This document shows, one piece after another, positions 21,155 through 49,394 of a stretch of 64,000 nucleotides of DNA (position 1 is its first letter; the number at the start of each line of letters is the position of its first letter). Location of the stretch: positions 1,178,001 through 1,242,000 of the forward strand of contig NZ_FNKY01000001.1 in NCBI RefSeq assembly GCF_900103165.1, written 5' to 3'. The position numbers were made by a program, and so were the translations under genes. This stretch comes from Nitrosospira multiformis (GTDB lineage: Bacteria; Pseudomonadota; Gammaproteobacteria; Burkholderiales; Nitrosomonadaceae). The notes under the pieces are model-generated. The model was given only the letters and a program-made list of their open reading frames with translations. It had not been told where the DNA came from and searched no databases.

Positions 21155-21534
21155 ACCTAAATCCGGTAGTTGACCGCTCATTTAATAGATCAGTGTTTTG
21201 ATTAATAACAATATTTCTTATTATTTGACTCTCACCTTCCGGGTGAGGCTGCTACGGGGTGAATTGCACAGTTTTTGCGGCACATAGCTGCGTTGCAACT
21301 TCTTGGAATGGGGCGCCCCGGAGCGTGGCACGAGGGGCCCCGCGAAGCGGGGATCGGGCAGCGCAGGGGATGCCGCGACCGCGTTCCGAGGCACCCGCAT
21401 CCCGCTGCGGGGTCACACCTTCCTGCGGAAGGCACTGCTCCGCCCTACGCGGTCGCACCATTCCGCGTCGTTGCGCCTTGCCCTGCACCCCAAAAACCGC
21501 ACACCTCACCCCGTCCAACTACCGGATTTAGGTT
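21154..21534. repeat. Family 1 inverted-end repeat, copy B (381 bp, longest)
   Basis: AACCTAAATCCGGTAGTTG at 21154-21172 is the exact inverse of 21516-21534. Inside, moving inward, are the hairpin CTCACC-TTCC-GGGTGAG and a second inverted repeat that begins TGCACAGTTTTTGCGG and is mirrored near CCCCAAAAACCGCACA. A G+C-rich core of about 140 bases that copy C lacks lies in the centre. The left end begins on the last base of the msbA stop, and the right end lies 12 bases past the end of the convergent CapD-like gene. No protein of its own is evident. Confidence 0.85.
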
Positions 21535-27404: not shown

Positions 27405-27516
27405 GCATTCTTGGTATGTAATCCCTCCCGCCCCTTCGGGTTGCTGCACAAAAAACGCGGCATTCGCATTTTTTGTGCAGCAACGCGGGTGCGAAATAAG
27501 TGTTAACAGGCCCTAG
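27405..27516. repeat. Family 2 repeat, short copy with 20-bp hairpin
   Basis: GTTGCTGCACAAAAAACGCG (27440-27459) is inverted at 27465-27484 with one mismatch around the loop GCATT. To its right, AAATAAGTGTTAACAGGCCC followed by TAG matches the outer end of the long family 2 element at 47536-47568, and CCCCTTCGGGTTGC on the left matches that element's interior. The left outer end is missing, so this is a truncated or solo-end copy. It starts within ten bases of the RIO kinase stop. Confidence 0.75.
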
Positions 27517-43427: not shown

Positions 43428-43667
43428 AACCTAAATCCGGCAGTTGATCGCTCATTTAATAGATCAGTGTTGTGATTAATAACAATATTTCGTATTATTT
43501 TACGCTTACCTTTTGGGTGAGTCCGCTACAGGGCAGATTGCACGGTTTTTACGGCGCATGGCAGCGTTGCAACTCCTTGGAATGGAATGACCATTCCGCG
43601 TCGTTGCGCCTCGCTCTGCACCCCAAAAACCGCACACTCCGCCCCGTCCAACTGCCGGATTTAGGAT
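43428..43667. repeat. Family 1 inverted-end repeat, copy C (240 bp)
   Basis: AACCTAAATCCGGCAGTTG (43428-43446) is inverted at 43649-43667 with only the outermost bases unpaired. It keeps the AT-rich block TAATAACAATATTTCGTATT, the TTACC-TTTT-GGGTGA hairpin and the nested inverted repeat (GCACGGTTTTTACGG versus CCCCAAAAACCGCACA). It lacks the G+C core found in copy B. Changed bases at the two ends compensate: GGCAGTTG pairs with CAACTGCC here, GGTAGTTG with CAACTACC in copy B. It lies upstream of mfd. Confidence 0.85.
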
Positions 43668-47297: not shown

Positions 47298-47568
47298 CTA
47301 GGGCCTGTTAACACTTATTTTGCACCCGCGTTGCTACACAAAAAACACGGAGGCAAGGCGCGAAGCGCAGGCCATAGTAGGCCTATGGCCAAGCTTCGCA
47401 ACGCGGCATCCGCGTTTTTTGTGCGCAACCCGAAGGGACGGGACGGATTTCATCCAGCCCTTCGTTACTCGCCGCTTACGGAAGCCTGCTCCGCCGCGCG
47501 GCTCATGCCTCGTGCTGGATGAAATCCGTCGCCATCGCGGGTGCAAAATAAGTGTTAACAGGCCCTAG
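47298..47568. mobile_element. Family 2 element with perfect 33-bp terminal inverted repeats (271 bp)
   Basis: The outer 33 bases, beginning CTAGGGCCTGTTAACACTTA and ending in GCACCCGCG, are exactly inverted at 47536-47568. Further nested inverted repeats lie inside: a TTGCTACACAAAAAACACGG arm against CCGCGTTTTTTGTGCGCAA, a palindrome around GGCCATAGTAGGCCTATGGCC's core near 47375-47395, and GACGGATTTCATCCAGC (47442-47458) against 47514-47530. No transposase reading frame is present. The CTAG at each end could be a target duplication or part of the repeat. It looks like a MITE. Confidence 0.85.
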
Positions 47569-48353: not shown

Positions 48354-49394
48354 ATGGACACAGCAAAATTTTTATTTCAGGCAGCGGCATTGCTGATCGT
48401 TTTATTTTCAGCGAGCGCTCACGCTATCCCAATATTGCAAGTCAATGGGGCGAGTGCTGCGAATGAAGATATTTATTCCGCGAAGTACAGTATGAGCCGC
48501 CCGGAAGCTGATAACGTATTATTTCCTGTGAATTCTTCCGTATGGAGTGAGAACGCTAATAAGAATAATCTGCTAGATAATTTTAGCGGGCTCAGTTTGC
48601 TTTATGGCCTCTACTCAGCCTTTGCAGCGCCGTTGCTGAGTTCGCCCGCTGCCGGTTTCACGATTTTCGATCTCCCCTTGGGCAAGATCGCCGCAAACGA
48701 TGAAGATATCGGATCAAGCGAGGATGAAAATACAATTATTGGTTTCTTTGCTACCCTGGGCCTCGGTTCGATGGACTGGGGGCCAGATGGAGGAAGCCCG
48801 GAGGCCGCTGGCCAGCAGGCTCAATCGGATCAGACCCACAACTCCTCCCCGGCGCCGCGTGGTCCGAGAGGCGATTGCCTGCAACGGCATCATGGGCAGT
48901 CGCAAAAGACCGGCTTACGGGACGATGGCCTTTGTCCCGGAGGGACTGGCCTAGGTGGCGCGGGTAGCAGAGGAGGTGGCCGTACCCTCTCCGCTGGGAG
49001 CAATGGTGGTTCTGGTGGCGGCGGCGCTGGCGGTGGCGGTTCTGGCGGTGGTGGTTCTGGTGGTGGTGGTTCTGGTGGTGGTTCTGGCGGTCCCGGTTCT
49101 GGCGGTCCCGGTTCTGGTGGACCTGGTTCTGGTGGACCTGGTTCTGGCGGCCCCGGTTCCGGTGGACCTGGTTCCGGTGGACCTGGTTCCGGTGGACCTG
49201 GTTCCGGTGGTCCTGGTAGTCCTGATCCCGTTGATCCTCCCAGTACTATTCCCGAGGAAGTGGGCACCGTTCCGGAACCAGCGACGCTAGCGCTTCTCGG
49301 TCTTGGCCTCGCGAGCATGTATGCCATGCGCAGTCGTAGGAAAATACCCGGGCGAGCCAATCATCTTGACGGGATTCATAGCGAAAGCGTCTAA
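48354..49394 (+). CDS. PEP-CTERM exported protein with Gly-rich repeat region
   Basis: A 346-residue protein with a signal peptide (cleavage near AHAIP). A Gly-rich tract (about residues 195-290) moves from GGGGSGGGGS repeats to GSGGPGSGGPGSGG repeats, and the exosortase sorting signal VPEPATLALLGLGLASMYAM is followed by RSRRK. An exosortase should cleave and anchor or release it. A 16-residue tail after the basic cluster is longer than usual. The middle part (about 145-195) is low in hydrophobics and matches nothing I know. No exosortase gene is in the window. Confidence 0.8.
   Translation: MDTAKFLFQAAALLIVLFSASAHAIPILQVNGASAANEDIYSAKYSMSRPEADNVLFPVNSSVWSENANKNNLLDNFSGLSLLYGLYSAFAAPLLSSPAAGFTIFDLPLGKIAANDEDIGSSEDENTIIGFFATLGLGSMDWGPDGGSPEAAGQQAQSDQTHNSSPAPRGPRGDCLQRHHGQSQKTGLRDDGLCPGGTGLGGAGSRGGGRTLSAGSNGGSGGGGAGGGGSGGGGSGGGGSGGGSGGPGSGGPGSGGPGSGGPGSGGPGSGGPGSGGPGSGGPGSGGPGSPDPVDPPSTIPEEVGTVPEPATLALLGLGLASMYAMRSRRKIPGRANHLDGIHSESV
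49010..49215 (+). repeat. Tandem repeats coding Gly/Ser/Pro-rich linker
   Basis: Repeats of 12-15 bases, GGTGGTGGTTCTGGT-like units followed by GGTCCTGGTTCTGGC-like units, encode the Gly-rich tract of the PEP-CTERM protein. Every unit is a multiple of three, so gain or loss of units would change protein length without a frameshift. Confidence 0.85.

Follow-up and report, generated by a model that had tools for sequence, protein, structure and literature searches.

A 271-bp sequence with perfect 33-bp terminal inverted repeats, located at positions 47298-47568 of a 64,000-nucleotide stretch of the Nitrosospira multiformis genome (hereafter the window), raises the question of what moved an element that carries no transposase, and of why its interior is built from inverted repeats. 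Bacterial MITEs are usually viewed as short-lived, species-bound scraps. The element described here is very probably a MITE moved in trans by a transposase of the IS427 group, with a body that consists of an inverted hairpin dimer and is subject to palindrome correction at the DNA level.

The first-pass annotation had placed this element exactly: CTAGGGCCTGTTAACACTTATTTTGCACCCGCG starts at 47298 and its perfect complement ends at 47568. The outer inverted repeat spans 37 nt with 97% identity, the 33 nt inward from CTAG being perfect. The interior contains repeats of 17 nt (100%) and 18 nt (89%), plus an apical 8-bp palindrome, with the hairpin arms at 47337-47354/47406-47423 and 47442-47458/47514-47530. 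The interior had previously been described as filled by three nested inverted repeats; the two inner hairpins are in fact neighbours inside the outer repeat, and neither is nested in the other. No ORF of at least 90 aa overlaps the element, in line with the earlier statement that no transposase lies inside. A length below 500 bp, terminal inverted repeats and the lack of a transposase ORF are all features of bacterial MITEs. Elsewhere in the window, a predicted protein (48354-49394) ends in a PEP-CTERM-like C-terminus and has an extended Gly/Ser/Pro repeat.

Table 1 Coordinates of MITE-related features in the window.
Feature	Position	Strand	Remarks
MITE proper, 265 bp between duplicated TA	47301..47565	+	boundaries from TA duplication in 29 copies and empty sites
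TA target duplication, left copy (target YTAR)	47299..47300	.	TA duplication and empty sites
TA target duplication, right copy	47566..47567	.	TA duplication and empty sites
Left terminal inverted repeat, 33 bp including CTA	47298..47330	+	its GGGCCTGTTAACAC matches IS427-group IS5 ends
Right terminal inverted repeat, perfect complement of left	47536..47568	-	
Hairpin 1 (hairpin 2 module, inverted)	47330..47429	-	R1 match 47329-47451 minus, 51.8 bits
Linker CCGAAGGG between hairpins 1 and 2	47430..47437	+	part of conserved string GCAACCCGAAGGG
Hairpin 2 (module)	47438..47535	+	R1 match 47425-47537 plus, 92.5 bits
Second copy of the MITE family, truncated/deleted (one end, shortened hairpin 1)	about 27429..27516	-	
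Different MITE, 236 bp, 17-bp exact ends CCTAAATCCGGCAGTTG	43430..43665	.	hairpin module at 43544-43631

The host genome (3.52 Mb, 2 contigs) was found to contain 30 dispersed, two-ended copies and several fragments. A search with the 16-bp end, allowing up to 2 mismatches, gave 73 matches compared with 1 for the reversed control pattern; together with the presence of 29 copies at 94-98% identity, this demonstrates that the element is not a chance arrangement. These copies comprise 17 that are near-full (~265 bp) and 12 that are internally deleted (181-210 bp). Ten of the shortened copies are 181-182 bp in length and do not contain hairpin 1, a form that looks like the product of a deletion between two GCAYCCGCG repeats. 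Isolated exact CTAGGGCCTGTTAACAC ends also occur in the host genome (L052, L056 and L046), backed by unrelated sequence and with no partner end within about 2-3 kb. Among the long joined frames inspected, no gene was found to be interrupted by a copy. A frame of 60 or more codons ends in the border TAG at 6 of 29 MITE sites, compared with 36 of 661 control YTAR sites (one strand only), an excess that is suggestive.

Each of the 29 copies examined is bordered by a duplicated TA. Flanks are CTA/TAG in 18 cases, TTA/TAA in 5, CTA/TAA in 4, and CTA/TAT and TTA/TAG in one case each, with C or T preferred to the left of the duplicated TA and G or A to the right. This identifies YTAR as the target and TA as the duplication. 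The CTAG at both borders, previously put forward as the target duplication, is ruled out by the TA-only duplication across copies and by the empty sites described below; the C and G next to it reflect either a preference in the target or the base with which the element itself begins. We searched for empty sites by comparing the joined flanks of six copies with 22 congeners, and the junctions of five, all but L028, were aligned. At four loci (L016, L018, L019 and L027), at least one congener is uninterrupted and has YTAR just once. A weaker case is the window site: congener G021 is continuous there without an insert, at 75% identity, but conservation is poor and the alignment is gapped around the junction. 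Orthologous sites in congeners were therefore found empty, the opposite of the situation named beforehand as speaking against mobility, in which all orthologues carry the element at the same place.

Which enzyme might have moved these copies is suggested by their ends. An IS5-family insertion sequence (IS) on an Enterobacter plasmid (CP071789) carries an identical 19 bp, CTAGGGCCTGTTAACACTA, at both ends, and related 828-bp ISs with the same kind of ends are found on Polaromonas (NC_007949), Pseudomonas and Variovorax plasmids. Pfam assigns the first ORF of these ISs to DUF4096 (PF13340) and the second ORF of the Enterobacter IS to DDE_Tnp_1. A named relative, ISAba31, is 858 bp in length with a 248-aa transposase, ends GGGTGTGTTGACACTT / AAGTGTCAACAGACCC and a 2-bp duplication (PMC4776018); a 2-bp target duplication is found in most IS427-group ISs (PMC3281130). 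Closer to the host, IS427-type relatives at 81-90% identity occur in four congeners (G003, G005, G006 and G018), and their ends resemble those of the MITE: in the best preserved, 13-14 of 14 core nt match. The identity between the MITE and IS5/IS427-type ISs of other hosts extends over 14-19 nt and is confined to these outermost positions, which means that none of the ISs found gave rise to the MITE by simple internal deletion. A different element of ~113 bp, in a congener (L038 2590-2708, L039 2575-2693), has only the GGGCCTGTTAACAC ends in common with it.

The search for full ISs with the same ends, as proposed in the first-pass annotation, thus succeeded in other bacteria and in congeners, and failed in the host genome: no matching IS427-type IS or transposase was found there, PF13586 is absent, and the MITE does not encode a transposase of its own as an autonomous IS of this group would. 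The MITE is therefore probably stranded, its copies being immobile at present unless an IS re-enters. Movement in trans by an IS427-group enzyme is what we infer from the ends and the duplication; the proposal of a non-autonomous element driven in trans is well supported in addition by the multiple copies, the terminal inverted repeats, the missing ORF, the empty sites and the ISs of other bacteria and of congeners that share these ends. Against this, the host genome is without the presumed driver, and the ends could have served another transposase. TA is likewise the duplication made by the IS630 family, and three identical copies of an IS630-family IS are present in the host genome. That this or another TA-duplicating enzyme moved the element is nevertheless highly improbable, as the IS630 ends CTAGTGTAGTGAGTTAGAA / CTAGTGTCCTGAGTTAGAA differ from GGGCCTGTTAACAC. 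Two copies of a DDE_Tnp_1 IS in the host genome were likewise rejected as driver, having ends that differ from those of the MITE.

The MITE is part of a family that extends well outside the genus. Homologues at about 66-74% identity are present on Pseudomonas, Halomonas and Azotobacter replicons, and a patterned scan of genome contigs yielded at least 119 stretches. The matches listed include Pseudomonas, Halomonas, Thiodiazotropha, Colwellia, Variovorax and Polaromonas, as well as Acidobacteriaceae MAGs, for which contamination is possible. Because GCAACCCGVAGGG and the right end were part of the search pattern, their conservation derives partly from search selection, and the invariance of GCAACCCGAAGGG across the family is likewise partly imposed by the pattern. 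Most relatives measure about 269 bp, with a length of about 267-272 bp in ~80 of the 106 elements recovered among the matches listed. Longer forms of approximately 296 and 323 bp, in steps of ~27 bp, were seen in Thiodiazotropha and other MAGs (L075, L085, L087, L096, L107 and L146). In an even sample of 370 genomes across the Gammaproteobacteria, a covariance model of hairpin 2 detected the module in 120 (E-values of the model are rough). In the best-scoring genomes the ends vary from genome to genome and resemble IS5 ends, while the body is constant. No match to the family was found in E. coli genomes or in phages.

Although derived solely from hairpin 2, this model recognises hairpin 1 as well, on the opposite strand of the same element, with lower scores for hairpin 1 both in the window (51.8 versus 92.5 bits) and in L225 (87.9 versus 116.1 bits). 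The body of the element is an inverted pair, or dimer, of one hairpin module. Both hairpins match the same strand in L138, as if one had been flipped. The module also occurs in the second, 236-bp MITE of the window (40.1 bits, E 1.4e-7), the ends of which are unrelated to those of the 265-bp MITE, showing that the module is not tied to one end type. This second MITE is flanked by ORFs that we take to be mfd and recJ; fragments of its ends recur across the genus (query 896-938), and a truncated relative at window positions 21155-21315 runs into other sequence.

Covariation was analysed in 38 sequences less than 80% alike. Bases pair in 91% of cells, and double changes occur at 70 of 88 pairs. 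Compensatory double changes were counted in 793 cells, compared with 255 in shuffles and 139-231 when partners were slid. Such strong covariation, together with a very stable fold (z = -12.8 for the plus strand and -17.2 for the minus strand, relative to shuffles), would also be in keeping with a structured RNA, whereby the element is transcribed, its hairpins are kept for a role at the RNA level, for example as an RNase III site or as a stabiliser of mRNA at the ends of genes, and mobility comes second. A precedent exists in the Correia elements, MITEs that are cut by RNase III in mRNA (review PMC10969869). We consider this an unlikely account, given that no promoter-like site was found in or near the window element, that Rfam has no match for it, and that the mismatches have little of the expected bias. 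Overall, 128 mismatched cells are G-T and 80 are A-C; by part, the G-T/A-C counts are equal in hairpin 2 (34/36), near-equal in the terminal stem (35/23) and in excess of G-T only in hairpin 1 (59/21), where the excess stems partly from one column pair. RNA under selection is expected to tolerate G-U far more than A-C, an expectation that is uncalibrated for these data. As G-T is not far above A-C, the pattern points to the DNA level, perhaps not in hairpin 1, where the excess could reflect some RNA-level constraint. Arm changes are mostly from one Watson-Crick pair to another, and the arm pattern as a whole is best explained by palindrome correction at the DNA level rather than by a clear RNA function.

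Variants within the host genome are consistent with such correction. Two multi-base alternatives are present, GTGCGCAAC or GTGTAGCAAC and GAAGCGCAGGCC or GAAGCTTGGCC, of which GTGTAGCAAC and GAAGCTTGGCC complement the opposite arm exactly. The imperfect forms (GTGCGCAAC and GAAGCGCAGGCC) are those found in congeners, suggesting that the perfect forms are probably derived, with the polarity resting on four relatives. Derived multi-base perfect forms are the signature to be expected of palindrome correction by template switching. This bears on the identity of the two ends, which had been attributed to recent movement or gene conversion. Because arm sequences differ a little from copy to copy and are probably mutually corrected, the perfection of the 33-bp ends does not by itself indicate very recent movement.

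Correction leaves one feature unexplained. The unpaired internal-loop letters are near-invariant across the family, making some selection on sequence or shape likely. This opens the way to a further account, modelled on the recognition of REP hairpins by RAYTs and of attC sites by integrases, in which the module travels inside MITEs and is bound, folded as single-stranded DNA, by a putative conserved protein of the cell or of a mobile element. The near-invariant loop letters would fit, as would covariation of the Watson-Crick kind in which G-T is not strongly favoured overall, the near-constant element length, and the occurrence of the module in a MITE with unrelated ends. We nevertheless regard it as doubtful, since arm correction alone could explain the pairing. 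More broadly, the hairpin dimer might be an independent module, conserved class-wide, that some factor recognises in its folded form, as single-stranded DNA or as RNA, and that hitchhikes in MITEs with different ends and drivers. This is a tentative possibility; if true, the module would represent a new kind of structured mobile DNA, as opposed to a decayed insertion sequence.

Under the preferred reading, an IS5-family transposase of the IS427 group would act in trans, cutting and re-joining the element at its GGGCCTGTTAACAC ends and inserting it into YTAR sites with duplication of TA, and the arms would be corrected at the DNA level through template switching or arm-to-arm conversion. The near-constant length and the conserved internal-loop motif suggest that the shape of the element may also be selected. 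Two questions become directly testable: what conserves the structure of a non-coding mobile element throughout a class, and whether the correction of palindromes is by itself able to produce covariation of the sort usually taken to indicate RNA structure. The second is of relevance to any covariation-based search for structured RNA.

The mechanism is that of a MITE, and the class-wide, structure-conserving inverted dimer is a variant for which we found no description. Apart from ISAba31 and a Legionella primer, literature searches with the end and module sequences returned nothing but papers judged unrelated; none of the papers covered contains the module strings tried, and an earlier description, in ISfinder or in subscription papers, is possible. 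The IS427 group of IS5 (ISAba31 and the Enterobacter CP071789 and Polaromonas NC_007949 ISs) has in common with the element the terminal 14-19 nt, the 2-bp duplication and a CTAG-type target; these ISs differ in carrying a transposase with DUF4096 and DDE domains, and bear no likeness to the MITE body beyond the ends. REP/BIME/REPIN sequences with their RAYTs, characterised by a GTAG or CGTC tag on the REP, likewise form inverted hairpin pairs with conserved unpaired letters. REP units are 20-40 bp (PMC3733652), in contrast to the hairpin of ~100 nt, the exact terminal inverted repeats and the TA duplication seen here. Closest in general form are Correia/NEMIS, Chunjie and QMITE (PMC10969869), which are also short and palindromic with terminal inverted repeats and a short target duplication, and occur as dozens of mostly intergenic copies with deletion variants. 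These are generally described in one or a few species, whereas the present family occurs in a third of the gammaproteobacterial genomes sampled and is distinguished by a conserved inverted-dimer hairpin with covarying stems.
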